Assembly: GCF_006716785.1 (NCBI RefSeq)
Contig: NZ_VFPQ01000001.1
Location: forward strand, 806,001-870,000
DNA length: 64,000 nucleotides
From: Thermopolyspora flexuosa
GTDB lineage: Bacteria > Actinomycetota > Actinomycetes > Streptosporangiales > Streptosporangiaceae
Direction: 5' to 3'
The notes under the pieces are model-generated. The model had not been told where the DNA came from. It did not search any database and saw only the letters and a program-made list of their open reading frames with translations. Each line of letters begins with the position of its first letter. Position 1 is the stretch's first letter. Below, one piece after another: positions 8,868 to 25,598 of the stretch. The translations under genes and the position numbers were made by a program.

Positions 8868-9569
8868 GTGCCGAAGATCGATACCCCCGTCCGCGTGCTC
8901 GTCGTCGAGGACGAGCCGCAGCTGCGCAACGCCGTGTCGCGCGCCCTCCGCATGGAGGGCTACGCCGTCGAGGTCGCCGAGGACGGGCCCGCCGGCCTCG
9001 CCGCCATGGCGAGCGAGCGCCCGGACCTCGTCGTGCTCGACGTCATGCTGCCGCGGATGGACGGGCTCGAGGTGTGCCGCCGCATGCGCCGCAACGGCGA
9101 CACCACGCCGGTGCTCATGCTCACCGCGCTCGACAGCGTGGGGGACCGGGTGGCCGGGCTGGACGCGGGGGCCGACGACTACCTGGTGAAGCCGTTCGCG
9201 CTGGAGGAGCTGTTCGCCCGGATCCGGGCGCTGCTGCGCCGCGCCGGGCCGGGGGAGTGCGACGCCCCGCTCACCTTCGCCGACCTCACGCTCTACCCGC
9301 GCAGCCGCCAGGGCAAGCGCGGCGACCGCCGGTTCGACCTCACCCGCACCGAGTACGCGCTGCTCGAGCTGCTCATGCGCAACGCCGGCCAGGTGCTCAC
9401 CCGGGAGGTGATCCTCGAGCGCATCTGGGGCTACGAGTTCACCCCGGGCTCGAACTCGCTCGAGGTCTACATCGGGTACCTGCGGCGCAAGACCGAGGCG
9501 GGCGGGGAGGTCCGGCTGATCCAGACCGTGCACGGGCTCGGCTACGCGCTGCGGGAGCCGACGACGTGA
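8868..9569 (+). CDS. OmpR/PhoB-family response regulator
   Basis: A 233-residue two-domain regulator. The receiver domain (residues 8-122) has the acidic pocket VVEDE, the phospho-acceptor Asp58 in VVLDVMLPRMDG, the TALDS switch and the conserved lysine in DYLVKPF. The C-terminal winged helix (about 135-230) reads RFDLTRTEYALLELLMRNAGQVLTREVILERIWG and ends with the wing RLIQTVHGLGYALRE. It is closest in style to the actinobacterial MprA/TcrA group. The sensor kinase gene follows 28 bases later. The start is GTG, with a short purine run (AAAGG) directly before it. Confidence 0.95.
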   Translation: MPKIDTPVRVLVVEDEPQLRNAVSRALRMEGYAVEVAEDGPAGLAAMASERPDLVVLDVMLPRMDGLEVCRRMRRNGDTTPVLMLTALDSVGDRVAGLDAGADDYLVKPFALEELFARIRALLRRAGPGECDAPLTFADLTLYPRSRQGKRGDRRFDLTRTEYALLELLMRNAGQVLTREVILERIWGYEFTPGSNSLEVYIGYLRRKTEAGGEVRLIQTVHGLGYALREPTT

Positions 9570-9597
9570 CCGGGAGCGACGCGGGGGGAGGCGCGGC

Positions 9598-10740
9598 ATG
9601 AAGCGGTTGCCGCTGGTGTGGCGGCTCGCGCTCTGCGCGGGCGTGGCCGCCGCGGGCAGTGTGATCACGGTGCTGGCCGGGGCCTACGTGCTCGCCTGCC
9701 GCCGGGTGGAGGACCTGGGCAGGGCGGGCGCGCTCGGCCCCTACTACGGCGACCACGGCCCGTACCCGCCGGTCGGCCCGGCCGGCGTGCTCGACAAGGT
9801 GGCCGGGCTGCAGGCCGAGCTCGGCTGGCCGTTCGTCGTGGTGGCGCTCGGCGGCCTGGTGCTCGCCGCCGTGCTCGGCTACATCGCCGCCCGCACCGCG
9901 CTGCGCCCGGTGGCCACGCTCACCTCGCTCGCCGAGCGGGTGGCGGCCACCCGTGACCTCGGCACCCGCATCGAGGTGGACCGCGACGACGAGCTGGGCA
10001 GCCTGGCGCGTAGCTTCAACACGATGCTCGACGCGCTCGAGCGCTCGGCGAAGGCGCAGCGCAGGCTCGTCGCCGACGCCTCCCACGAGCTGCGCACCCC
10101 GCTCGCCGCGCTGCGCACGAACGTGGAGCTGCTGCGCCGCGCGGACCGGCTCGACCCCGCCGAGCGCGCCGAGCTGCTCCAGGAGACCCTCGACGGGCTG
10201 GAGGAGCTGAGCGCGCTCGTCTCCGACGTGGTGGAGCTCGCCCGCGACGAGGAGCCGTCGGTGCTGCTCGAGGACGTGCGGCTCGACGAGATCGTGGAGC
10301 GCGCGGCGGCCCGCGCCCGGGCGTACTGGCCGCGGGTGCACTTCCACGTGGACGTCGAGCCCGCCGTGGTGCGCGGCGTGCCCGACCGGCTCACCCGGGC
10401 GGTGGCGAACCTGCTCGACAACGCGGGCAAGTACAGCCCGGCGGGCGGCGTCGTCGAGGTACGGCTGCGCGGCGGCGAGCTGACCGTGCGCGACCACGGG
10501 CCGGGCATCGCCGAGGAGGACCTGCCGTACGTGTTCGACCGGTTCTACCGGGCGCCGAGCGCGCGCTCGATGCCGGGCTCCGGGCTCGGCCTCGCCATCG
10601 TGCGGCAGGTGGTGGAGGGCCACGGCGGCACGGTCGCGGCGGGGAACGCGCCGGGCGGCGGCACGGTCGTGCGCATGCGGCTGCCGCTGCAGCAGGCCCC
10701 GTCGCGGCCGTCGCGGGCCCGGCAGCCGGTGCGGGCCTGA
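9598..10740 (+). CDS. sensor histidine kinase (MprB-like)
   Basis: A 380-residue membrane kinase that partners the preceding regulator. TM1 is at about residues 8-33 and TM2 at 80-100, enclosing a short extracellular loop of roughly 45 residues with glycine and proline. HAMP (about 100-153) leads to the dimerisation/phospho-acceptor helix with His163 in ADASHELRTPLAAL. The ATP-binding domain carries NLLDNAGKYSP (N box), VRDHGPGI (G1), FDRFYR (F box) and GSGLGLAIV (G2). The short sensory loop suggests an envelope or membrane signal. The gene is followed by a large non-coding region holding a small RNA candidate. Confidence 0.95.
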   Translation: MKRLPLVWRLALCAGVAAAGSVITVLAGAYVLACRRVEDLGRAGALGPYYGDHGPYPPVGPAGVLDKVAGLQAELGWPFVVVALGGLVLAAVLGYIAARTALRPVATLTSLAERVAATRDLGTRIEVDRDDELGSLARSFNTMLDALERSAKAQRRLVADASHELRTPLAALRTNVELLRRADRLDPAERAELLQETLDGLEELSALVSDVVELARDEEPSVLLEDVRLDEIVERAAARARAYWPRVHFHVDVEPAVVRGVPDRLTRAVANLLDNAGKYSPAGGVVEVRLRGGELTVRDHGPGIAEEDLPYVFDRFYRAPSARSMPGSGLGLAIVRQVVEGHGGTVAAGNAPGGGTVVRMRLPLQQAPSRPSRARQPVRA

Positions 10741-10934
10741 CCGGCGCGGCGTGCCGTACTCGGCGGGTAACGCCCGGCCTGGGGCTCTCTCGACCTGACC
10801 TGGCAGGTCATCGGCGGATGTATGCGATAGTTCCACCTGGCCATGACGCACTCATGACGTGCGTCTCGATAGTGTTGAGGCAGGTCATGGGACCTGGGGC
10901 GCAACCGGCGCACCACAGGACTTCTTTCCGATAG

Positions 10935-11047
10935 GGACGTGGAGGGGGGAACCACGTCCGGAGCGGGACCCGTGGCGCTTTGGGGGAGGCGCCGAAACGG
11001 GCCGCGTGAGTCGGGGCCGGGCAGCAGGGGGAACTGCCCGGCCCCGA
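10935..11047 (-). ncRNA. candidate 6C small RNA (two C-loop hairpins)
   Basis: On the minus strand two perfect hairpins occur in order: arms 11047-11034/11024-11011 (14 bp, loop TTCCCCCTG) and arms 10959-10952/10942-10935 (8 bp, loop TTCCCCCCT). A pair of stems whose loops hold runs of five or six C is the defining feature of the actinobacterial 6C RNA. The linker contains CACGGGTCCCG-like sequence, also fitting. No protein-coding frame is convincing here. The exact 5' and 3' ends are not determined; a plus-strand transcript with G-rich loops is the alternative. Confidence 0.65.
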
Positions 11048-11266
11048 CGTATGTCCGGAAACGGTGGCCGGGGGGACAGGGGGACGCCCGTGGGAGGTCC
11101 GTCCGCCCGGCCCTCCGGCCTTTACCGCCCGTCGACGCCGTCGCCACCCGTCCGGGCCGCTCGGAACGCCGCCCGGGAAGGCGGTTCGGGGTCGTTCGAC
11201 CGCCGCCACCCGGCCCCGCGCGGGTCTCCCAGGGGTAGATCTTTTTGGGTGTTTTGGGTGGTTATC

Positions 11267-11347: not shown

Positions 11348-11510
11348 CGACGCCGAATCCCACGGGCGCCCAGCGCCCCGGGAGCCGGGGACCCAGTCGC
11401 GCGGGCGGCGCAGTGCAGGCCGTACCCGCGAGGGGTGAATCCAGCGGCGCGTGGCGCGCTGGTAGGGCACTCCTAGCCCGAACCCGTCAGCTAACCCGGT
11501 AGGCGAGATA
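11348..11510 (+). promoter_or_regulatory. c-di-AMP riboswitch (ydaO-yuaA type)
   Basis: The conserved blocks of the ydaO-yuaA aptamer appear in the right order: GCCGGGGACCCAG, then GGGGTGAATCC, then GGTAGGGC, then AGCCCGAACCCGTCAGCTAACC followed closely by GTAGGCG. P1 can form between the CGCC near 11351 and the GGCG near 11501. In actinobacteria this element precedes cell-wall hydrolase and resuscitation-factor genes, and high c-di-AMP lowers expression. Here the next large gene is a secreted barrel-domain protein about 410 bases further on. Confidence 0.92.
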
Positions 11511-11525
11511 GGAGAGGAGAACCAG

Positions 11526-11633
11526 GTGGAGAACCCCGACTCCACGGCCTCGCCCCGCCGGCGGGCGCCGTCCCATGACCAGGGCGACGGCCGCGACAGC
11601 ACGCGGCGGCCACGCACCCGAAGCACAGGCTGA
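11526..11633 (+). CDS. possible short leader ORF after the riboswitch
   Basis: A 35-codon frame, GTG to TGA, encodes an Arg/Pro/Asp-rich peptide starting VENPDSTASPRRRAP. It is preceded by the strong purine run GGAGAGGAG at a good distance. The composition does not look like a folded protein, and the frame could be chance in GC-rich DNA. It is listed because the ribosome binding site directly after the aptamer is unusually good, whereas the main downstream gene has a weak one. Confidence 0.25.
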   Translation: MENPDSTASPRRRAPSHDQGDGRDSTRRPRTRSTG

Positions 11634-11649
11634 CCGCCCTCTGCTTCGC

Positions 11650-11686
11650 CCGAGGCCGATCGGATGACCTCCATCTCGGCCCTCGG
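11650..11686 (+). terminator. stem-loop in the riboswitch leader
   Basis: CCGAGGCCGA at 11650-11659 pairs with TCGGCCCTCGG at 11676-11686 (10 bp with one bulged C; 16-base loop). There is no U-tract. It may act as an attenuator in the leader between aptamer and coding region; direct evidence is only the inverted repeat. Confidence 0.4.
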
Positions 11687-11921
11687 CCCCAGGTAACGGC
11701 CCCGGCGGACATCCGCGCCGTCACCTGCACATCCTCGCACAACCCCGCCGCGTCGTGGTGCGGCGTGTCTCATATCGCTTTCGCTGCGGGCGCCACCACG
11801 TTCCGTCTTCCGGCCGGCGTCCTCCGGCCGCAGGCGCCCCGTCCACGTGCCTTGTGCTCTGCCCTAGAGGTGCCGAGGTCGACGTGGAAGTCCTGTCCCC
11901 TCACGGAAGACCTCCCGTTCG

Positions 11922-12662
11922 ATGAAGTTCCCCTTTGGCCTGAACAAGAACGATGTCAAGACGAAGTACGCCCCCCTCGCCGCCGGCCTCGTCGGCATCA
12001 CCATGGCGGGCCTGACCATCGCGGGCGTCACCGACGACGCGAACGGCACCGCCGCGAAGGCCAAGACCGTCGCCGCCGACGTCCAGCCGCTCGCGATGAC
12101 CGCGGGTGCGCGCGCCGCCGAGGGCCTCGCCGCCGCCGCGGCCGAGGCGAAGCAGAAGGACGAGGCGAAGAAGCGGGCCGCCGAGGCGCAGCGCAAGGCC
12201 GAGGCGAGAAAGGCGGCGGCGGCGAAGAAGAAGGCGGCACAGGCCGAGCGGCGGCTGCTCGTCGGCACGACCAAGGCCTCCTACTTCTGGGACGACGGCT
12301 CCGGCCGCCAGGGCGACACCGGTATGCCCGCCTCCGGCAAGCCCATGCAGAAGGGCCTGTTCGCCTCCCCGAGCTGGCCGCTCGGCACCGAGGGCTACGT
12401 GATCTACAAGGGCAGGAAGGCGAAGTTCTTCATCGGCGACCGCGGCCCCGGCGTGCCCTCCAACCACGGCGTCATGCTCGACATCGACGGCAAGACCTTC
12501 GCCGAGCTCACCGGCGGCACCTGGGACCCGAACACGCTCACCGTGCGCGGCAACGGCGGCCTCGGCCACATCCACGTGACGTACGTCATCACCAAGTGGG
12601 GCAACGGCCCCGGCCGCCCCGGCAAGCCGGTCCCGTTCTCCACCGGCGCCTGGCGGGAGTGA
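11922..12662 (+). CDS. secreted double-psi barrel (RlpA-like) cell-wall protein
   Basis: A 246-residue exported protein. A signal/anchor segment (YAPLAAGLVGITMAGLTIAGV) follows a short basic N-terminus. Residues about 60-115 form an Ala/Lys/Glu-rich, probably coiled-coil linker, and the C-terminal 130 residues form the conserved domain. That domain has features of the RlpA/double-psi beta-barrel fold: TGMPASGKPMQKGLFASPSW, then PLGT, then FFIGDRGPGVPSNHGVMLDID and FAELTGG. Such domains bind or cleave peptidoglycan. The ribosome binding site is weak (GGAAG 13-17 bases upstream). The gene lies downstream of the c-di-AMP riboswitch, which fits cell-wall remodelling. Confidence 0.75.
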   Translation: MKFPFGLNKNDVKTKYAPLAAGLVGITMAGLTIAGVTDDANGTAAKAKTVAADVQPLAMTAGARAAEGLAAAAAEAKQKDEAKKRAAEAQRKAEARKAAAAKKKAAQAERRLLVGTTKASYFWDDGSGRQGDTGMPASGKPMQKGLFASPSWPLGTEGYVIYKGRKAKFFIGDRGPGVPSNHGVMLDIDGKTFAELTGGTWDPNTLTVRGNGGLGHIHVTYVITKWGNGPGRPGKPVPFSTGAWRE

Positions 12663-12792
12663 TCCGGCCCTCCCGACGCCGCCGCGACGCCCGGGCACGC
12701 CCGCGACGACCTCGCCGGCCGGATGCCCGGGCCGGTATCCGATTCCGATGTGCGCAGACGCCTCGGGACTGCTATGGTTACGAACGTCGCTC

Positions 12793-12865
<73 letters not shown>

Positions 12866-12870
12866 CCCGA

Positions 12871-12916
12871 AGACGCGATCTGGGCACCGTCCACCGGCGG
12901 TGCCCAGATCGCGTTT
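12871..12916 (+). terminator. intrinsic terminator of tRNA-Lys
   Basis: CGCGATCTGGGCACCG at 12874-12889 pairs perfectly with 12898-12913 (16 bp, 8-base loop) and is followed by TTT. It starts six bases after the tRNA. Confidence 0.93.
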
Positions 12917-13057
12917 GGCGCTCATGTCTCCGGCCGGTCCGGTTCGCCTCCCTGCGGACGCCGGAGGGAGGTCCGACCCGCGGGCGGAAGGCGTGCTCCC
13001 GCCCGCGGAACGGCGCTCGTCACCGGCGGTCGCTCCGGGCGCCCACCCGCGGCCCGC

Positions 13058-15459: not shown

Positions 15460-17130
15460 TCAGCCGCCGAGCGTCGCGCCCTCGGTGAGCGGGCGGACGG
15501 TCCGCGCGTAGACCGAGAGCCAGCCGCAGCCGGGCGGGGCCGGGGTCTCGGGCATGGCCGCCCGCCGCCTGGCGAGCTCGTCCTCGTCGACCTCGAGGTC
15601 GATCGTGCGCGCGTCCACGTCGATGCTGATCATGTCGCCGTCCCGGACGAGCCCGAGCGGGCCGCCGACCGCGCCCTCCGGGCTCACCTCGGCGACCACG
15701 AGGCCCTTGTTCACCAGGCCGGACATCTGGCCGTCGGTGACCACGGCGACCTCCGGGCCGAGGCCGGCGCCGTCGAGCGCGAACACGAACGCCGAGGTGA
15801 GCCCCATGCCGGGCGAGCCGCGCAGGCCCAGGCCGGTGAGCACGAGCACCTGGCCGGGCTCGACCTCGCCGTTCCGGATGGCCGCGATGCCCTCCTCGCG
15901 GGAGCGGAACACCTTGGCCGGGCCGCGGAAGCGGCGCGGGGCCTCGTCGGCGACGGTGCGCTTCACCACCGCGCCGTCGGGCGCGAGCGAGCCGCGGATC
16001 ACCACGATGCCGGGGTGCCGGGCGAGCGGGTCGTCGAGCGGGCGGATCACGTCGGACTCGGGCGGGGTGACCGACGAGACGATCTCCCGCACGGTACGGC
16101 CGGACACCGTGGGCCGGTCGAGGTCGAGCATGGGGGCGAGCCGGTGCATGAGGGCGAGCGCGCCGCCCGCCGCCTCGAACTCGTCGATGCGCCGCGGGCC
16201 GTTCGGCTTCACCCCGGCGAGCAGCGGCACCTGCGGGGCGAGCTCCTCGAACAGCGCGTACACGTCCACGTCGCAGCCCGCCTCGACGGCGACCGCCTGC
16301 AGGTGCTTGAGGGTGTTCACCGAGCCGCTGATCGCGAGCACGGCGGTGACCGCGTTGCGGAACGCGCCGGGGGTGAGGATGTCGCGGGGCCGTACGTCCT
16401 CGGCGACGAGCTCGACGATGCGGCGGCCGGCCTCCTTGACCGTCCGCCACATCTTCTCGCTGCGGGCGAGCACCGGGGTGCTGCCCGGCAGCGCCATGCC
16501 GAGCACCTCGGCGGTGATGTGCATCGAGTTCGCGGTGCCCATGCCCGCGCACACCCCGGGGCCGGTGATCGCGCAGGCGCTCATCTCGGCGAGCTCCTCG
16601 ACGGTCATCTTCCCGGTGGCGACGTGCCCGGCGTACAGGAACACGTCCTCGAAGTCGACGTGCTCGCCGCGGTAGACGCCGGACGGCTGGTAGCCGCAGG
16701 CGACGATGATCGTCGGAATGTTGAGGCGGGCCGCCGCCATCAGGTGCGCGGGCGTGGTCTTGTCGCACGACGACAGGCAGATCATGCCGTCGAGCAGCGC
16801 GCCCTCGGCCGCCACCTCGATGTCGGCCGCGATCAGGTCACGGGACGGGAGGATGTACTGCCCGGCCGCGCCCGCGCTGGTGATCGCGTCGCTCGGCGCC
16901 GCGGTGCGAATCTCGAAGCCGACGCCGCCCGCCTCCCGGATCGCCTGCTTGAGCGGGCCGACGATCTCGTCGAGGTGGGCGAAGCAGCTCGCCAGGTCGG
17001 ACGAGGTGTTGACGATGGCGATCTTCGGCTTCTCCATGTCCTCGGGGGTGAGCCCGAGGGCGGTCCACTGGGCGCGGCGCATCGCCCAGCGGGTGGTGCC
17101 CGGCTCGAAGTTGCTGCGCAGCGGCCTCAC
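15460..17130 (-). CDS. IlvD/Edd-family dehydratase
   Basis: A 556-residue Fe-S dehydratase of the dihydroxy-acid / phosphogluconate / sugar-acid dehydratase family. Cluster-type cysteines are seen in [24 protein letters not shown] and [15 protein letters not shown]. The C-terminal barrel contains GLRGSPGMG and VVTDGQMSG. The GTG start overlaps the upstream oxidoreductase stop (GTGA), which fixes the start and shows coupling. Its context is not a branched-chain amino acid locus, and the [10 protein letters not shown] segment differs from canonical CDK(x)PG, so a sugar-acid or other dihydroxy-acid substrate is more likely than the valine/isoleucine intermediate. It is the last gene of the operon. 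Confidence 0.88.
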
Positions 17131-18488
17131 TTGACCTCCCGGCCGAGGTAGACGCCGTGGTTCTCCAGCCTGCGCTGCAGCTCCGGCACGTCGATGTCGG
17201 CACAGTCCACGCCCGCGTCGAGCGCCATGCCCGCCGCCATGCCCGCGGCCTCGCCCATCGCGAAGCACGGCCCGGTCACCCGGGCGGCCGACTGGGCGTC
17301 GTGGGTCATCGACGCGCACCGGCCGGTGACGTACAGGTTGCGCACCTTCTGCGGCAGCAGCATGCGGAACGGCAGCTGGTTGAACCCGCGCGGGTTCTCG
17401 CCGCGCGGCCAGCGGAACTCGACCGTGCCCGCCACGTGGGCCTCCACCGGCCAGCCGTTCACGCCGATCGTGTCCGGGAAGTCGGCGCAGTCGCGCACGT
17501 CGTCCTCGGTGAGCATGTACCGGCCGATGATGCGGCGGGTCTCCCGGATGCCGATCTGCGGGGCGATGTCGACGATGTACGAGTCGCCGAAGCCCGGCGT
17601 GTTGTCGCGGATGAACGCGAACGCGTCGAACACCTGCCGGCGGCCCTGCAGCTCGCCCCGGGTGAGCTGGTCGACGTCGGTGCCGTCGATCGCGCTGCCG
17701 TCCGGGTTGCTGAGCTGGGTGAGGTTCGCCCGCCACTCCAGCGGGTTGCGCTGCGGCCGCACGATCGGCTTCTTGCGCGGGAACTTGTGCGTGCCGGCCC
17801 GCTCCGCCTCCTCCATCAGCCGCTCGACGGTGCGCCACGGCTTCTCCCCGGCCGCGGCCGCGTCCACGCCGTTGATACGGAACATCAGCGACGGGTAGAG
17901 CATGCCGTTGATGCCCGGCGACTTCTCGTACGGCACGCCCGCCCACGCGGCCACGTCGCCGTCGCCGGAGGCGTCGATGAAGATCCGGCCGCGGACCGCG
18001 GCACGGCCCGACTTCGACTCGATGAGCACGGCGTCGATCGTGTCCTCGTCGGCCATGACGAGGCCGACCGCGAGGGCGTGGAAGAGGATGCGGGCGCCGT
18101 GGCCGGTCACCAGCTCGTCGGCGGCGAGCTTGTAGGCGGAGATGTCGAACGCCTGGGCCTGGATGCCGTCGTTGATGGTCAGGTGCGGCTTGGACAGGCC
18201 GTCGAGCTTCTCCAGGCGTTCCAGCAGCTCGTCGGCGAGGCCGTGGATCACCCGGCGGTGCTCGCCGTACACCTTGGCGTGCAGGCCGCAGAACGTGCTG
18301 AGGCCGCCGGCGGTGCCCGCGCCGCCGAGGAAGCCGTAGCGTTCGAGCAGGATCACCGAGTGCCCGGTGCGGGCAGCGCTCGCCGCCGCCATGATGCCCG
18401 CAGGTCCGCCGCCCACGACGACGACGTCGAACTCGCCGTACACGGGGGTCTTGCGGCTGGGCTCAATGATCACTGGGCGCTGTTCCAC
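17127..18488 (-). CDS. FAD-dependent oxidoreductase (FAD_oxidored family)
   Basis: A 453-residue flavoprotein. The Rossmann ADP-binding motif is FDVVVVGGGPAGIMAAASAARTGHSVILLER; next comes the family segment YGFLGGAGTAGGLSTFCGLH. A second family motif IFIDASGDGDVAAWAGVPYE and the C-terminal FAD segment NLYVTGRCASMTHDAQSAARVTGPCFAMGEAAGMAA complete it. Such proteins oxidise or reduce small organic acids or sugars. It overlaps the dehydratase gene by four bases and lies 23 bases after the small CxxC gene. Substrate unknown. Confidence 0.88.
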   Translation of the reverse strand: MEQRPVIIEPSRKTPVYGEFDVVVVGGGPAGIMAAASAARTGHSVILLERYGFLGGAGTAGGLSTFCGLHAKVYGEHRRVIHGLADELLERLEKLDGLSKPHLTINDGIQAQAFDISAYKLAADELVTGHGARILFHALAVGLVMADEDTIDAVLIESKSGRAAVRGRIFIDASGDGDVAAWAGVPYEKSPGINGMLYPSLMFRINGVDAAAAGEKPWRTVERLMEEAERAGTHKFPRKKPIVRPQRNPLEWRANLTQLSNPDGSAIDGTDVDQLTRGELQGRRQVFDAFAFIRDNTPGFGDSYIVDIAPQIGIRETRRIIGRYMLTEDDVRDCADFPDTIGVNGWPVEAHVAGTVEFRWPRGENPRGFNQLPFRMLLPQKVRNLYVTGRCASMTHDAQSAARVTGPCFAMGEAAGMAAGMALDAGVDCADIDVPELQRRLENHGVYLGREVK

Positions 18489-18511
18489 GGGACGTTCCCT
18501 CTTCCTCTATG

Positions 18512-18760
18512 TCAGTGGCCCGGGGTGTCCGCGGGCAGCTCGATCCGATCCAGCGAGTACGGCGTGCCGGCCAGCGCGTCCGACAGGATGGCCTGCATCA
18601 CCGGCAGCGGCACCAGGCAGTCGGCGCACGCGTCCGGCCCGGCCTCGATCCGCACCACGACCTTGTCACCCTCGCCGACCTGCCAGTCGAGGCTGTAGCC
18701 GTCGGAGGCGAGCATCTCCTTGAAATGGCCGAACGCCGCATCCAGGGTCTTTTGCGTCAT
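18512..18760 (-). CDS. small CxxC protein in the UGSC operon
   Basis: An 82- or 83-residue protein beginning TQKTLDAAFGHFKEMLASDGYSLDW. Its core VVVRIEAGPDACADCLVPLPVMQAILSDAL carries two cysteines in C-A-D-C and vaguely resembles the NifU C-terminal/thioredoxin-like scaffold pattern; this resemblance is weak. The start is either ATG 18760 or the in-frame GTG 18763; both overlap the stop of the upstream gene (GTGATGA), so translation is coupled. With its vicinal cysteines it could serve as a redox or persulfide carrier for the operon; this is inference. Confidence 0.7.
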   Translation of the reverse strand: MTQKTLDAAFGHFKEMLASDGYSLDWQVGEGDKVVVRIEAGPDACADCLVPLPVMQAILSDALAGTPYSLDRIELPADTPGH

Positions 18761-19854
18761 CACACATCCCTCACCGGCGCGATCGAAGGGGCGTCCCCCC
18801 GCGGCCCGAAGGTCTCGATGATCGTCGACACCCCGGCGTTGTTCGCCCCGGCCACCGCGATCAGGATCGCCTCGGGGCTGTTGAGCGCCGGCACCCGCTC
18901 GGGGGTTTCGGAGGCCGAGGCGGTGTCGGGGATGGCGTCGGGGTGGTCGGACGGCAGGCGCCAGCGGCTCAGCCGGGAGATGGCGTCCTTGCCCACCGCC
19001 TTGAGCTCCTCGCGGGTGTTGACCGCGTTCTCATAGACAAAGCGGCGCACGTCCTGCTTGCTCCAGCCGCAGGAGGCGAACATCTTCGCATGCTCGGGGC
19101 CGAGCACGATCAGCACGCTGGTGGTCTCGTGGATCAGCGCGCCGGTGCGGCGCACGCTGTCGGCAAGGTCGCGGCCGAGCTGTTCGGGGATGCGGGTGTG
19201 GCGGGCCTCGATGTGCATGCACGAGCGGATGGTCAGCCCGGTCACCGCGCTGGTCTCAGCATCCAGGCCGTGTTCGACGTGGAACGGCTCCCAGGGGGAG
19301 TCCTCTTCGTTTTCGGCGATGCAGGCGCTGTATTTGCCGAAGGTGGCCTGGGTGGCCTGGTCCAGCTGGTGGGGGCGCACCCCGAACACGTTGATCGCGG
19401 TCAGCCGGATCGCCCGCCCGATCGTGGCATTCGCCCGAAAGCCCGAGCCGAAGACGTTGCCTTTACTGTTGAGCCCGATCTTGCCGCGGATGGGGCCGTT
19501 GACCATCAGCAGCGGGGCGGTGCCGGTGGTCGACTGCCAGATGCCCTTCTTCGGGTAGGGCTCTTTGGCCAGGGCGTCCCAGCCGGCGAGCACGACGGGG
19601 AAGTACTCGGGCAGGCATCCGGCCAGGGCGGCGTTGATCGCCGCCAGGCGGACGGTGAGCTTGCGGTTGAGGTGCGGCATGACAAACAGCACCTCATCGG
19701 GGTCCCGGCCGGTGGTGGCGAGGAACTCGGCCAGGTAGGACTCGGTGACCGGGACGACCGGCAGGCCGTCGGTCCAGCCGTTTCGGGCGTAGTGTTCCAT
19801 GGCCGCGCGGATGGCGGCGGCGTCGACGGCCGGGGTGTCGAGCTTGGTGCTCAT
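18760..19854 (-). CDS. 364-aa protein of the UGSC cassette, unknown function
   Basis: A soluble 364-residue protein that I cannot name. Visible segments are NGWTDGLPVVPVTESYLAEFL near the N-terminus, MPHLNRKLTVRLAAINAALAGC, PLLMVNGPIRGKIGLNSKGNVFGSG, a histidine/acid-rich middle (SPWEPFHVEHGLD, CMHIEARHTRIPEQ) and VLIVLGPEHAKMFASCGWSKQDVRRFV. The C-terminal SPEAILIAVAGANNAGVSTIIETFGPRG has a glycine-rich loop. Four cysteines are spread through the protein. Its fixed place between a UGSC protein and a CxxC protein implies a common enzyme complex, possibly with the UGSC protein as the redox-active subunit. The ATG is 76 bases after the preceding stop. Confidence 0.75.
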   Translation of the reverse strand: MSTKLDTPAVDAAAIRAAMEHYARNGWTDGLPVVPVTESYLAEFLATTGRDPDEVLFVMPHLNRKLTVRLAAINAALAGCLPEYFPVVLAGWDALAKEPYPKKGIWQSTTGTAPLLMVNGPIRGKIGLNSKGNVFGSGFRANATIGRAIRLTAINVFGVRPHQLDQATQATFGKYSACIAENEEDSPWEPFHVEHGLDAETSAVTGLTIRSCMHIEARHTRIPEQLGRDLADSVRRTGALIHETTSVLIVLGPEHAKMFASCGWSKQDVRRFVYENAVNTREELKAVGKDAISRLSRWRLPSDHPDAIPDTASASETPERVPALNSPEAILIAVAGANNAGVSTIIETFGPRGDAPSIAPVRDV

Positions 19855-19930
19855 GATCTGCGATCAGCCCTCGTAGTCGATCAGGGGGTCAGGAAAGGGA
19901 CGGGTCGGGGGTGGGAGCCGGGGTGGGGGG

Positions 19931-20470
19931 TCAGTTTTCCAGGCCGAGGATGCGCTGGATGTCCGGCAGCACCTCCAGCACGCGCTGGCGCAGCTCGGTC
20001 TCGTCGCAGCTGGCCACGGGGTGGCGTACGGCGACGAACTCGTAGCCGGAAAAGCCTTGGAGCTGGGCCATGGCGCGGCCGGAGACGAGGAAGGAGTCGG
20101 AGACGATGGCGACGGCGGGGATGCCGGCGCGTTCGAGCATGATGCCGTCGGCGACGGTGGCGGCGCTGCAGGAGCCGCAGTCGCCGACGGCGGTGATGAC
20201 CAGGTCGCATTCGGCGGTGAGCTTGTTGAGGACCTGCTCGGTCATGGGGGTGCCGAAGTAGTCTTTGGCGTATTCGCGGACCTGGCCGGTGCCGTGGCGG
20301 GCCTGGAGTTCGCGTGCCACGTGCCGCAGCAGGTTGGTGGCGTTGGGTTTGGTGTTGTCGAGCAGGCCGATGGTCAGGCCCTGCAGGGTTCCGGGCCTGG
20401 GGGCGAGGGTGGTGTCGGCGGCCTGGTCGGCGTTGCCGGTCGGGTCGAGCAGGTGTTCGAGTTCGGGCAT
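19931..20470 (-). CDS. UGSC-family protein (cysteine form, CGSC)
   Basis: A 179-residue protein of the UGSC family, in which a U/C-G-S-C motif carries selenocysteine in some members. Here Cys98-Gly99-Ser100-Cys101 lies in VITAVGDCGSCSAATVADGIML, and the first position is a TGC codon, so no Sec is needed. The N-terminal half has GLTIGLLDNTKPNATNLL, and the C-terminal half AVAIVSDSFLVSGRAMAQLQGFSGYEFVAVRHPVAS, resembling the loop-rich sheet of glycine-reductase-type or sulfur-handling proteins. The start has AGGAGG 12-13 bases upstream. It is the first gene of the operon. A redox or sulfur/selenium chemistry role is suggested by the motif only. Confidence 0.82.
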   Translation of the reverse strand: MPELEHLLDPTGNADQAADTTLAPRPGTLQGLTIGLLDNTKPNATNLLRHVARELQARHGTGQVREYAKDYFGTPMTEQVLNKLTAECDLVITAVGDCGSCSAATVADGIMLERAGIPAVAIVSDSFLVSGRAMAQLQGFSGYEFVAVRHPVASCDETELRQRVLEVLPDIQRILGLEN

Positions 20471-20617: not shown

Positions 20618-21061
20618 TCAGGCTCCGGTGAGCCGCTCCAGCACGTCGAGCAGCTCGGGCGGCTCCACGTGCTCGGTGAGGGCGGCGAGCTCCGCGCGGG
20701 AGAACCAGGCGAAGCCCAGCAGGTTGCCCGTCTCCTCCGTGGTGAGCGCGGCCGGAGCGACCCGCGGCCGCTCGGCGAAACGGGCGAGGTAGAACGGCTC
20801 GGTCTTGACGTAGTGCACGCCCAGCCACATGTAGTCGCGTGGCACGGGCACCCAGCGGTCGAGCACGGCGTCGCCGGGCAGCCCGGTCTCCTCGGTGAGC
20901 TCACGGCGGGCGGCCTCGAGCGGCGTCTCGCCGGGATCCACCCCTCCACCGGGCGGCTCCCAGAACACGAGCCCGCTCACCGGGTCCCGCCACCGCAGCA
21001 GCAGCACGTGGCCCGCGTCGTCCACGCAGAGCACCCGCGCTGCGGGTCGATCGCTCGTCAC
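20618..21061 (-). CDS. Nudix hydrolase
   Basis: A 147-residue protein with a full Nudix box, GGGVDPGETPLEAARRELTEETGL (residues about 38-61). The fold opens with RVLCVDDAGHVLLLRWRDP and ends in a helical WFSRAELAALTEHVEPPELLDVLERL. It should hydrolyse a nucleoside diphosphate linked to some moiety; substrate unknown. The GTG at 21061 was chosen because the longer frame adds only arginine/glycine-rich sequence typical of non-coding GC-rich DNA. It is separated from the UGSC operon by that operon's promoter region. Confidence 0.88.
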   Translation of the reverse strand: MTSDRPAARVLCVDDAGHVLLLRWRDPVSGLVFWEPPGGGVDPGETPLEAARRELTEETGLPGDAVLDRWVPVPRDYMWLGVHYVKTEPFYLARFAERPRVAPAALTTEETGNLLGFAWFSRAELAALTEHVEPPELLDVLERLTGA

Positions 21062-21130
21062 CCTTCGATCGTGCCCTCCGCCCCGCCGTACGGTGCGGCC
21101 GACCCCTCGGTTACGGACCCCGCACACACG

Positions 21131-21243: not shown

Positions 21244-24200
21244 TCAGCGGCGGAGTTTCGCGCTGTCGTACAGGCCGAGGAGTTCGGGCTCCTCGCCGGG
21301 CCGGAACCGCAGCACCGGGAGGAGCTGCGAGATCCGGTTACCGGTGGCGGAGTCGATCCGGATCTCGCCGGACGCCCCCGGCACGCTGTTCGCGGCCGAG
21401 GTGATGAGGTAGATCTGGTTGCGCACCGCGGCCGGCTCGGGCAGCTCGCCGGAGAGCGCGGCGCGCCGTACCGCGTGGGCGGCGGTGAGCACGGCGTCGT
21501 GCGCCATGATCGCCCAGCCGGTGGACAGGTCGGCGGTGGCGAAGCCGAGCCCCTGGAAGGACTGCTCGAACTTCAGGTACTGCGCCGCCGCCGGGTTCTT
21601 CGACGGGTCACGCAGCACGGACGGCTCGGCGAGCGGCACGTACAGCAGCGAGATGGGGTTGTGCGACGACCGGAGCGCGGCGATGCCCGGCGCGTTCTCC
21701 GCGGTGTCGCTCATGAGCCGGACCGCGTCGGAGCCGGTGAGGACCGTGATCCGCTCCGGGTGGCAGTTCCGGTTGCCGAGGTAGGCGAGGAACAACGGCA
21801 GGTCCTTGCCCCGCCCGGCGTACAGCACGGTGTCCGGGGCGTTCTCGCTGCACAGGTTGCCGATGATGGTCCGGAACTCGTTGGCGGGGTCCTCGCCGAA
21901 CGGGTTGTTGATCCTGCCGCCGCGTCGCCACAGGTCGGCGAAGTGCCTTTCGAACCCGCGGACCAGGGAGCGGGTGTAGAGATCGTTCTCCTGGCTGTAA
22001 CTCACCATCATCGCCCGGCGCAGGCGGCTCTTCTCCGGTACGTACCGGCCGAGCGCCGCCAGCTCCTCGTCGGTCGTCGGGCTCACCCGGGCGATGCCGT
22101 TCACCGCGTTCTTGTCGATCTCCTCGGAGGTCACGATGTCGACCACCATCGGCAGCTTGACTCCGCTCAGCCGTTCGGCCGCCCACCTCGTCTCGTCCTG
22201 GCTGAGCCCCATGCTCGCCACCGCCACGAGCCGGTCCTGCTCTTTGGTCATGTCCACGAGGTCGTCGGTCACCTTCCGCCAGTGGGCCGCAGTGCTGCTC
22301 GTGTTCGCCAGCACCATCCGGATGCGCGGCCGGTCGCCGACGAGCGCCTCCCGGTTGCTGCGGTGCTGCGCGGTCACCGCGCCCTCAAGCTGGTGAACGA
22401 CCCGCGGGTCCGGGTTGGTGAGCGGGCCCAGGAACGCGATCGTCACGTAGCTGCCCGGGCCCCCCTCGGTGGCGTACGCGTTCTCCTTGGCCAGCGTGTC
22501 GACGACGTGCCGGAATCGCGGCTCGAACGCGAAGGAGTCCGTCACCCCCACGCACTCCTCGCGGGTCTCCCCCTTGGCCACCTCGACCTCGACCTTGGGC
22601 ACGCCGGATGCGCACGTGGGAGCGAAGATCCCACAGCCGCGAATCCAGCAGATGATCAGCGGCGCCACCACTATCAGCACCAGGGCCACGATCAGCGCGA
22701 CCAGCCACCGGCGGCGTCGGCGCGGCGGCGACCACGGGTTCCGCGGGCCGCCGATGTCGCGCAGGTGGCCCTCCTCGCCCTGCACCCGGCGGAGGAACTC
22801 GGTCTTCGCCTCCATCATCGCGCCGGTTTTCGGGCACTCGATCGCCACCTTCTCGAAGGCGTCGTTGACAAGGGTGAGGAGTGCGGTCCGGTCGCCGCGG
22901 GCAAGCGGCTCGTTGGCCACCCACAGCGCGGTGAGCAGGCGTGCGACCTGTACGGTGAGCTCGTCGGTGGGGGTGACGCCGCGAGCCAGTTCCTGCGCGT
23001 GGTCCACCGGCGCCTTCTTGAACGGCTCGCGATGCGGGGCCGTCGCCACCTTCTCGAGGAGGGTGAGCCAGGCCTTGACCCCCATGCCGGGATCGCGCAG
23101 GCGCCGGGTCAGCTCGTCGACGACCTCCTCCACCTTGCCCAGGGCGAGGGCGTGGTGGAGCTCCCCGGCCTTGTTCGCGGCCCGGGAGCGCAGCAGCTCG
23201 TGCACGGCCGTCCAGCCGTTGGGCGCCTGGGGGTGCCGCCTGGCGAGGCGGTCGAGCAGCAGCCGGCGCAGCACGGGGTGCATCCTCGCCGGGCCTGCGG
23301 TGACCCCGGGAAGCCAGATCGTGGTCTCACTCAGTACCGCGGCGCCGTCCCTGCCGATCGGTCTTCCCGGGCCGACCAGCTCACCCGCCTCGCGATGGTC
23401 CCGCGCCGCCGCGCACGTGATCAGATGGTCCCGCGTCTTCGCCGGGAGGCCGTCGAGGAACATGTCGAGCAGCCGTTCCCGTACGGCCCTGCCGCCGTCG
23501 ACCCCGAAAGGCACGTGGTCGACCACCTTACGCAGGTCGACCGCGTGGTCACCCAGCCGGTCGCGCATCTCCTTGATCGCGCGGACCACCTCGGCCGTCG
23601 CCCCGGCGTGCCCCCGGGTGAACCGGTGTACGGCGGGCGCGATCTTCTCGGGGTCGCCGGCGTCGGCCTTTCTTACCATGGCCTTGACCTGGTCCACGGT
23701 GAGGTCGGTGAGCCGTACCGGGTAGCACCAGCGCCCTTTGCCGAGATAGTCGGCGACGCTCGCCTCGTCCGTCGTCGGGAACGGCTCGTCCGACGTCGCG
23801 TACGGCGCCACGAGAGGGCCCCGGCTGGTGGCCACCACCGTGATGGGGCTGTCCTCGTCAGAGTCGTGAAAGGCGTTTCTGAGCAGTTCGAGGAACGCTC
23901 TTCCGGACGGTGTGTCCGCGTTGTCGAGAAGTATCAGGCAATTGGAACCGCGGTCCCGGCCGTGGCGTTCGAAGTCGTCACGCAGGTCGGCGAGGAACGC
24001 CCGGAGCATGACCGCGTCGACCTGCCTTCCGCCCTGGTCGGCCGACTGCGCCAGGCGGTTGAGCTTGCGCAGCTCATCCAGGTAGTCCCTCGCGGGCCCG
24101 TGGTCCTGATGGGAGTACCACTTCGCGCCCTTCCCCAGGAGCGCGCCGGTTCGGATCCACCGGGATGCGACGCTCTTGACGAGCAGGTCGATGGCGGTAC

Positions 24201-24689
24201 GCAAGGCCGCGTCGCCGATGCCCGGAGTGAGCGCCTTGAGCATCTGGGCGATGGAGTCCTCGAGCGTGTGCAGGTTTCTGTGCCGCGCCAGAAGGTCGCG
24301 GATCTGGGCACGGGCCGAGTCCGGGTCGGTGTGGTCGATCTCGGCTTGCAGGACCAGGCTGCCGACGATGAAACGCGGGAAGGCGATGCGGCGGCCGTAG
24401 GCGGCGCAGTGCGCCGGCGGCCGTAGGCGGCGCAGTGCGCGTTCAGGTCCTGCACCAGGAGGCTGAGCACCTTGGGGATCGGCCATTTGTCATCGGCCGG
24501 GAAACGGAGGTGCGCGTAGGGGACGTTCTGATCGAGAACTTCCACCAGCAGCTCGAGCAGGGTCGACTTTCCGCTGCCCCGGTGCCCCACGAATATGATC
24601 ACGGGTGCGGGCTGCGGTGCGCTGCCGTCCCGGACCGAGAATCGGTGAACGAGTTCGATCGCCCTGCCCCGACCGTACGGCATTGGCAT
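21244..24689 (-). pseudogene. P-loop ATPase / TM / ligand-binding receptor fusion, frameshifted by a 26-bp duplication
   Basis: Two frames form one gene. The first gives MPMPYGRGRAIELVHRFS, Walker A VGHRGSGKSTLL (residues 34-45) and LNAHCAAYGRR. The second continues IAFPRFIVGSLVLQAEID, Walker B-like NCLILLDNAD, a helical AAA/STAND-like region, a basic stop-transfer RRRRR with a TM helix at about 652-675, and an extracellular domain of about 450 residues resembling type-I periplasmic binding proteins (YVTIAFLGPL, MVVDIVTSEEI, RAMMVSYSQENDLYTRSLVRGF). The break coincides with a perfect 26-bp tandem duplication. Removing one copy restores a continuous 1,139-residue protein exactly (3,420 bases). 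The ATG at 24689 has GGTGGGGGA before it. It probably senses an external ligand and signals inside. Confidence 0.8.
24389..24440. repeat. perfect 26-bp tandem duplication
   Basis: Bases 24389-24414 and 24415-24440 are identical (unit begins CGGCGGCCGTAGG and ends CAGTGCGC). 26 is not a multiple of three, so the second copy shifts the frame of the gene that contains it. The unit encodes AHCAAYGRR-type sequence on the minus strand. Confidence 0.97.
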
Positions 24690-25053
24690 TCCCCCACCCT
24701 GATAACAGCAAGCCGGTGCCCAGGTCTTTCGGCCGATCAAGCGCCCGATAGGCGAATTGTGGGGGAACAGGTTAGTCAAAAGCCATGGGAATGTATAGCT
24801 CTAACATTACGGGGGTCACGCGGTGAAAGTCGTAATCGGTTATCGGGGTTACACGGAGACCGTAAAGTGGTATTATGGATATTTCGGTAATGTGCAGTTT
24901 TGTTTATTTTTATCCGATATAAGCAGGTTTGGTGCAATATTAACCGAGGGCTGCGTGGGTAACCGTGCCCGGTGGCCGGATCGGCGGGAAGGGCGGCGCC
25001 GCCTTCCGGCGGGCAGCCGCCCCGGTCGAGCCGGGTACGGCACGGCCCGCGCG
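24690..25053. other. AT-rich intergenic region with likely promoter
   Basis: No credible gene. The segment from about 24780 to 24960 is far richer in A and T than the rest of the window (for example TTTTGTTTATTTTTATCC). A TATACAT on the minus strand near 24795 could be the -10 of the ATPase-receptor gene. The 3' ends of the two flanking minus-strand genes do not face it, so it is upstream DNA of the ATPase gene. Confidence 0.45.
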
Positions 25054-25518
25054 TCAGCCGTACAGGTAGACGGCCCGGCCCTGCTTGCGGGCGTCACGGG
25101 CGGCGAGCAGCCGTGGCCGGACCGGCTCGGGGAGCAGCTCGGCCGCCTGTGACCAGGGGAAGAAGCCGTACTCGTCCAGCTCCTCCTCCTGCAACGTGAC
25201 CTTCGCGTCAGGAGGGAGCGTGCCGCCGTCGAAGACGAAGGTGACGAGGCTGCGCGGACGGTTGCCGTCGGGCAGCTGCCAGTGCACGACGAGCAGCTCG
25301 CCGGGGGTCACGCGCAGGCCCAGCTCCTCGAAGACCTCGCGCTCGGCGGCCTGATGGGGAAACTCGGCGGCCTCCATCACGCCGCCGGGGATCGACCAGC
25401 CGGGGCGGTAGTTGGGCTTCACCAGCAGGACGCGGTCGTCGGCGTCGGTGAACAGCACGCTCGCCGAGGCGAAGTGGGCGGGCAGGGACGCGAACCAGGC
25501 GGCGGGATCGAGGGTCAT
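25054..25518 (-). CDS. Nudix hydrolase
   Basis: A 154-residue Nudix protein. The box is GGVMEAAEFPHQAAEREVFEELGL (about residues 46-69), preceded by SASVLFTDADDRVLLVKPNYRPGWSIP. The second half has VTFVFDGGTLPPDAKVTLQEEELDEYGFFPW, typical of the substrate-side loop in small actinobacterial Nudix enzymes. The ATG at 25518 is preferred over the in-frame GTG at 25524, though both are possible. It stands alone, on the same strand as the GH3 gene upstream of it. Substrate unknown. Confidence 0.88.
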   Translation of the reverse strand: MTLDPAAWFASLPAHFASASVLFTDADDRVLLVKPNYRPGWSIPGGVMEAAEFPHQAAEREVFEELGLRVTPGELLVVHWQLPDGNRPRSLVTFVFDGGTLPPDAKVTLQEEELDEYGFFPWSQAAELLPEPVRPRLLAARDARKQGRAVYLYG

Positions 25519-25598
25519 CGGCACAACCGTACCGCCCGGACGGCGGCCCCCGGAGGGAGCCGGGCCGCCGCCCGGGCTGCCTGTGGCGGTACGGAGGA

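Follow-up and report, generated by a model that had tools for sequence, protein, structure and literature searches.

A frame-broken actinobacterial gene joining a STAND-like ATPase to a membrane-anchored, receptor-like domain of predicted periplasmic-binding fold, and its mostly two-gene relatives

Background

For NLR-like STAND proteins, the main known role is the sensing of intracellular events. The window analysed here (a 64-kb stretch of actinobacterial DNA) carries on its minus strand a gene in which an ATPase of this general kind is followed by a transmembrane (TM) helix and a domain resembling periplasmic binding proteins (PBPs). In the explanation we prefer, to which we assign a joint probability of roughly 0.55 as a whole, the window copy belongs to an actinobacterial receptor pair and was broken recently; such a pair consists of an NLR-like STAND ATPase in the cytosol and a LivJ-type extracellular receptor that spans the membrane once. 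Chance is ruled out as an account of the gene, since homologues at E ≤ 1e-20 are present in 79 of 297 genomes of the family.

Results and discussion

Layout of the gene in the window

The long open reading frame (21244-24486, minus strand; 1080 aa) encodes the remainder of the STAND ATPase, including its Walker B region, then the RRRRR-TM segment and a predicted outward-facing type I PBP. The Walker A motif GHRGSGKS (24564-24587), already recognized in the first-pass annotation, lies in a separate N-terminal ATPase segment (24423-24689, minus strand; AAA_16 E = 7.2e-5, under the cut-off of that family). This segment is opened by an ATG at 24689, with a TTG further up at 24779 as a possible alternative start, and its reading continues into the wrong frame downstream. 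Between the two lies an exact tandem duplication of 26 bp (24389-24440, minus strand; copies 24389-24414 and 24415-24440), and because 26 is not divisible by three, Walker A is split off from the remainder of the gene. Hence the single protein of 1,139 aa proposed earlier has no single frame. No other break was seen along the gene.

The remaining landmarks also lie on the minus strand, an assignment that the first-pass annotation did not give. The Walker B-like NCLILLDNAD occupies 23914-23943 and has Asn in the second acidic position; VVATSRG, which we take to be RNBS-B-like, lies at 23818-23838; and GHAGAT, presumably a GxP-like motif, is found at 23596-23613. The stretch of about 600 residues postulated ahead of the arginine run is borne out, extending to RRRRRW at 22705-22722, and the single TM helix said to follow it was recovered at 22645-22707 (22645-22722 together with RRRRRW; positive side inwards). 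The TM and extracellular PBP half as a whole comprises 492 aa (21247-22722), an assignment based on the structure model, Pfam and conserved cysteines.

The ATPase half

The homologues have in common the motifs G-x4-GK[ST], hhLLDN, VVATSRG and GHPGAT, the last being altered in the window by the replacement of Pro with Ala. We assume hhhTSR and GxP to be motifs of STAND NTPases of the NB-ARC/AP-ATPase type. By pattern, GK[ST] or GR[ST] is present in 33 of the 36 full-length ATPase loci, and Lys is replaced by Arg in eight, both fusions outside the window included. In the Walker B motif hhhLLDN the first Asp is kept and the second acidic residue is mostly Asn (36 loci). Owing to these two substitutions hydrolysis may be weak or absent, and some members may not need to be good ATPases.

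Sequence profiles gave weak AAA_16 and AAA_22 matches and a NACHT match beneath its cut-off. As neither NB-ARC nor NACHT was found above its Pfam cut-off for the ATPase, our claim is limited to a STAND-like fold and does not extend to membership of a Pfam family. A PDB sequence search with the ATPase profile returned P-loop-only matches. An intact split homologue (L189, Actinoallomurus soli; pLDDT 81.0, 8 sequences) was modelled, and its best matches are plant NLRs, CED-4, an archaeal ATPase and Dark (WRR4A Z = 13.9, RPP1 13.5, NRC4 13.1, CED-4 12.3, PAB2304 12.2 and Dark 11.5). About 290-330 residues align to NLRs and CED-4 over the NBD-HD-WHD fold with Z of 12-14, values that are close to the warning level for helical models and that belong to the homologue and not to the window protein. 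Foldseek with the same model ranked the STAND protein 6mfv first and Avs3 third; a family's absence from the fold lists was not read as evidence against it. The model thus places the ATPase, at moderate Z, with NB-ARC-type STAND ATPases. The membrane STAND-like switch envisaged in the first-pass annotation is supported in its anatomy (an NLR/CED-4-like model of an intact homologue, a ligand-binding fold in the C-terminal half and an orientation from cytosol through membrane to outside), and the switching is treated below as a proposal.

The receptor half

The receptor half corresponds to residues 589-1080 of the long frame and starts with RRRRRW, followed by a hydrophobic stretch of 19 residues (mean Kyte-Doolittle hydropathy 3.38, the best 19-aa value). 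According to the positive-inside rule the positive flank of a TM helix faces the cytosol; hence the ATPase is predicted to be cytosolic and the C-terminal half to be outside.

At the sequence level, Pfam gave Peripla_BP_6 alone for the whole frame (E = 1.2e-4, 22.3 bits) and a slightly better match for the C-terminal half alone (E = 1.6e-5, 25.2 bits), both under the gathering score of 31.7 bits; NCBIfam gave no match for the whole frame, and four of 14 relatives matched Peripla_BP_6 at E ≤ 0.01. A PDB sequence search returned one irrelevant weak match for the 1080-aa frame and none for the PBP profile. The PBP-like character proposed earlier for this half was instead settled by a structure model (AlphaFold2, 14 sequences; pLDDT 89.1), which predicts a type I PBP fold and resembles LivK/LivJ-type amino-acid receptors over about 345 residues (3td9 Z = 35.4, 4n0q 35.3 and 4gnr 34.8; rmsd 2.6). 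Its Foldseek hits also include the ectodomains of mGluR, calcium-sensing and ANF receptors. The fold is common to LivJ/LivK-type PBPs and to mGluR and ANF ectodomains, but the window family differs from them in having an N-terminal TM helix and, ahead of the fold, an additional segment that carries Cys.

When 101 relatives were aligned (numbering from RRRRRW), a TM-like segment lies close to the start in 97, and Cys37, Cys57, Cys291 and Cys320 are kept in 96, 94, 99 and 97, respectively, a pattern that would suit an extracellular location. Arg304 of the YAGR motif is invariant (101/101) and belongs to the window family, setting it apart from the receptors named above. Positions 174 and 198 are each Ser or Thr in 99 of the 101, and both align in MAFFT with Ser/Thr of a LivJ-type protein from the same genome, the alignment from which pocket residues were assigned. 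The acidic position 332, a candidate holder of the ligand amine, is variable. Positions 174 and 198 are taken to be pocket-like from the presumed residue roles of LIVBP.

The receptor module behind other domains

Within the class, the PBP profile found matches in 56 of 296 genomes and, in a phylum-wide sample, in six of 296, all six from the window's own class. Of 102 PBP frames, and setting aside that of the window, 69 are preceded by 99 or more residues; 66 of these were scanned, L145, L152 and L160 being left out for runs of X, and several of the 66 N-termini are upstream over-extensions of the frames. At E ≤ 0.001 the scan found TIR_2 in five, Pkinase, DUF4062 and EAD1 in three each, HTH_31 in two and NB-ARC in one. 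Most of the N-termini have no Pfam match, and the effector-linked forms are consequently a minority.

Several arrangements precede the TM-PBP unit: TIR (L034 and L162), TIR with kinase (L117 and L118), kinase (L161), DUF4062 (L154, L165 and L168), HTH_31 (L081 and L082), EAD1 (L156, E = 6.9e-6; L159, 7.3e-14; and L160, 2.9e-9, which was scanned separately) and TIR with NB-ARC (L166). As far as the sequences go, the same module is reused behind TIR, kinase, EAD1, DUF4062 and HTH domains. PADLOC reported no families in the window, and the kinase-fused relatives match its kinase models PD-T4-6 and mad6, which shows kinase homology and nothing further.

L166 (5374-9024, minus strand) is a single chain of 1216 aa with the order TIR, NB-ARC (GMGGVGKT), TM and PBP, that is, a TIR-NLR whose sensor end is a predicted extracellular receptor. 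Within the matches listed for 35 family genomes, it is matched at full length in its own genome alone, and its two parts match apart elsewhere. In a further 20 single chains, the PBP is preceded by part of an ATPase-like region with no credible Walker A, and in 12 of these one or two additional hydrophobic stretches lie ahead of the TM helix of the PBP. L028, L030, L032 and L037, each one chain and about 870-1020 aa long, combine a degenerate ATPase-like region with a PBP; by eye they sit between citrate synthase-like and serC-like genes.

Proposed mechanism and the nature of the signal

Starting from the fold, the anchoring and the pairing, which sequences and models supply, we infer the ligand, the exchange, the oligomer and the output as follows. 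A small ligand, perhaps amino-acid-like, would close or pair the outer domains, and the one TM helix of each chain would relay this event to the ATPase. The receptor would thereby occupy the C-terminal sensor position held by LRR, WD40 or TPR repeats in other STAND proteins. The ATPase may then swap its nucleotide or oligomerise at the membrane and recruit an output protein whose gene lies elsewhere. No effector domain was found.

Our reading is that an outside-sensing receptor module has been plugged into NLR-like or conflict-type signalling, with its TIR, EAD1 and NB-ARC companions pointing towards conflict. The main rival concerns what the receptor reports: the pair may instead inform metabolism or development about amino acids, or solutes related to them, outside the cell, and be unrelated to immunity or cell death. 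The LivJ-like fold leans this way, the nearest folds being branched-chain amino-acid binders, as do the conserved Ser/Thr at positions 174 and 198 with their counterparts in the LivJ-type protein, the kinase-fused forms and, by eye, a kinase-like gene beside the PBP gene in L025. There is also a precedent, the GlnH-GlnX-PknG system, in which actinobacteria wire a PBP to a cytosolic kinase (PMC9769921). However, an NLR-like ATPase and TIR, EAD1 and NB-ARC partners would be unusual in a nutrient sensor, position 332 varies, and the LIVBP residue roles are presumed; we regard nutrient sensing as somewhat unlikely. A broader version of the receptor-switch reading, in which actinobacteria possess outside-sensing NLRs (STAND ATPases whose C-terminal sensor is membrane-anchored, extracellular and metabotropic-receptor-like, in two-gene or fused form, the module being swapped among TIR, kinase, EAD1 and STAND outputs) that mount conflict or death responses to extracellular cues, is offered tentatively, as a possibility with odds rather short of even.

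One gene or two

The single chain of the first-pass annotation does not hold as a rule. Of the 36 full-length ATPase loci, 33 have the halves as adjacent genes, with the TM/PBP domain starting 27-184 nt past the ATPase stop on the same strand, and three are fused (the window, L071 and L073); L150 counts as full-length under a looser criterion (37 loci) and is excluded by the stricter filter. The halves of the homologues are thus mostly separate genes, yet adjacent and co-directional rather than unrelated, an outcome that does not refute the first-pass annotation by its own criterion. As these loci were partly selected through the PBP, pairing among them is biased upward, and a search with the ATPase alone provides a less biased count: of 296 genomes of the class, 16 gave a long match, and the PBP is joined to the ATPase or lies beside it in 15, the other (G369) having a locus without PBP. 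ATPase and PBP distances are correlated over 35 loci (Mantel r = 0.76, reached by none of 9999 permutations; L086, with its broken PBP, left out), a correlation that could come from common species history. Judging from gene order, the ATPase appears to be near-obligately paired with the receptor, and the neighbouring halves in most relatives suggest a bacterial route by which outside signals are wired into NLR-like switches.

Individual loci depart from the simple pair. The PBP partner is absent from the locus of the ATPase gene L214 (3489-5774, plus strand); two tandem PBP genes (9565-11118 and 11456-13012, plus strand) follow one ATPase gene in L022; and in L086 the PBP gene (8890-10154, plus strand) that follows an ATPase is broken into pieces, representing a second decaying locus.

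The other two fusions share 91% identity, their identity to the remaining ATPases in the alignment is 23-29%, and neither belongs to the nearest relatives of the window. Because of this distance, fusion probably arose at least twice, to judge by the sequences. In both, the Walker A Lys is replaced by Arg (GERGSGRS), and the window gene is frame-broken; none of the single chains seen is both intact and equipped with a canonical Walker A. The window fusion could be mere decay, in which the stop between two genes was lost in a dying locus, and would then be functionally uninformative. The broken frame fits this, and so does the nearest relative at the PBP (L177, 57% identical), which is split. 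Nevertheless, the receptor half retains its conserved residues, the 26-bp duplication is the only break seen, and the independent fusion of L071 and L073 is open end to end, and we therefore hold decay to be an unlikely explanation.

State and surroundings of the window copy

The receptor-encoding frame is without Walker A, and the window copy is therefore probably inactive. No second copy of the gene was found in its own genome at the sensitivity of the searches used. The duplication might be an artefact of assembly or sequencing and the gene really intact, as a lone break in an otherwise open gene could suggest; but it has the top score among the 37 tandem-repeat rows of the 64 kb, and a perfect 26-bp tandem copy does not resemble common sequencing errors, which makes an artefact unlikely.

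On either side of the broken gene lies a NUDIX gene (20618-21127 and 25054-25524, both minus strand). They were considered as partners and dropped, since no such neighbour is common to the relatives. The run at 17127-20470 (minus strand) includes genes for an FAD-dependent oxidoreductase and a UGSC-family protein and is adjoined by an open reading frame that is IlvD-like by eye. Although the PBP fold and the weak Peripla_BP_6 match would suit an ordinary substrate-binding protein of an ABC importer with an ATPase gene adjacent by accident, this is extremely improbable, as the ATPase is STAND-like and not an ABC ATPase, the seven neighbours scanned (NUDIX, GH3 and UGSC genes included) contain neither a permease nor an ABC ATPase gene, no conserved third gene was found near the pairs when looked for among the relatives, and cytosolic domains are attached to the TM helix in relatives.

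Relation to known systems and implications

Parts of this arrangement are already in print. In Kaur et al. 2020 (PMC7159879), EACC1 systems are described as two-gene membrane conflict systems prevalent in actinobacteria, with TM helices and a downstream extracellular PBP among up to 50 variable C-terminal domains; a PBP behind a TM segment occurs there in caspase proteins. The TM segment with extracellular PBP and the actinobacterial prevalence are shared with the window family, whereas the constant parts of that system as given there, EACC1 and usually a caspase domain, were not found here: no EACC1 gene lies 5' of the window gene, where the upstream gene is NUDIX, and no caspase was detected in the 1080-aa frame or, among the 25 matches listed, for the N-terminal piece. 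Ser/Thr kinases with solute-binding domains, one of them from Streptomyces coelicolor, are likewise known (PMC1262709); they combine cytosolic signalling with a solute-binding domain as here, homology of the binding domains not being implied, but have a kinase where the window family has a STAND ATPase. In the GlnH-GlnX-PknG system (PMC9769921), an actinobacterial PBP signals to a cytosolic protein, as is proposed here, but that PBP is a lipoprotein in its own right and GlnX contains four TM segments.

With STAND NTPases (plant NLRs, CED-4, Apaf-1 and 6mfv) the window family shares Walker A, a Walker B-like LLDN and putative TSR and GxP-like motifs, as well as the NBD and helical domains by model match and the C-terminal sensor position. 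It differs in that the sensor is a predicted extracellular PBP behind a TM helix, usually encoded by a separate gene, and in that no N-terminal effector and no repeat array were found. In the open-access literature we found no account of a STAND ATPase that has a PBP as its gene partner or fusion partner, which does not imply that none is in print.

If the receptor-switch reading is true, outside sensing of the mGluR/ANF type would be joined to NLR-like switches, and two classes of receptor kept apart in animals and plants would be connected. The compact two-gene form would make ligand, nucleotide state and output testable in laboratory Streptomyces, and the shared receptor module may offer a way to find out what these bacteria detect with their TIR, EAD1 and kinase proteins.
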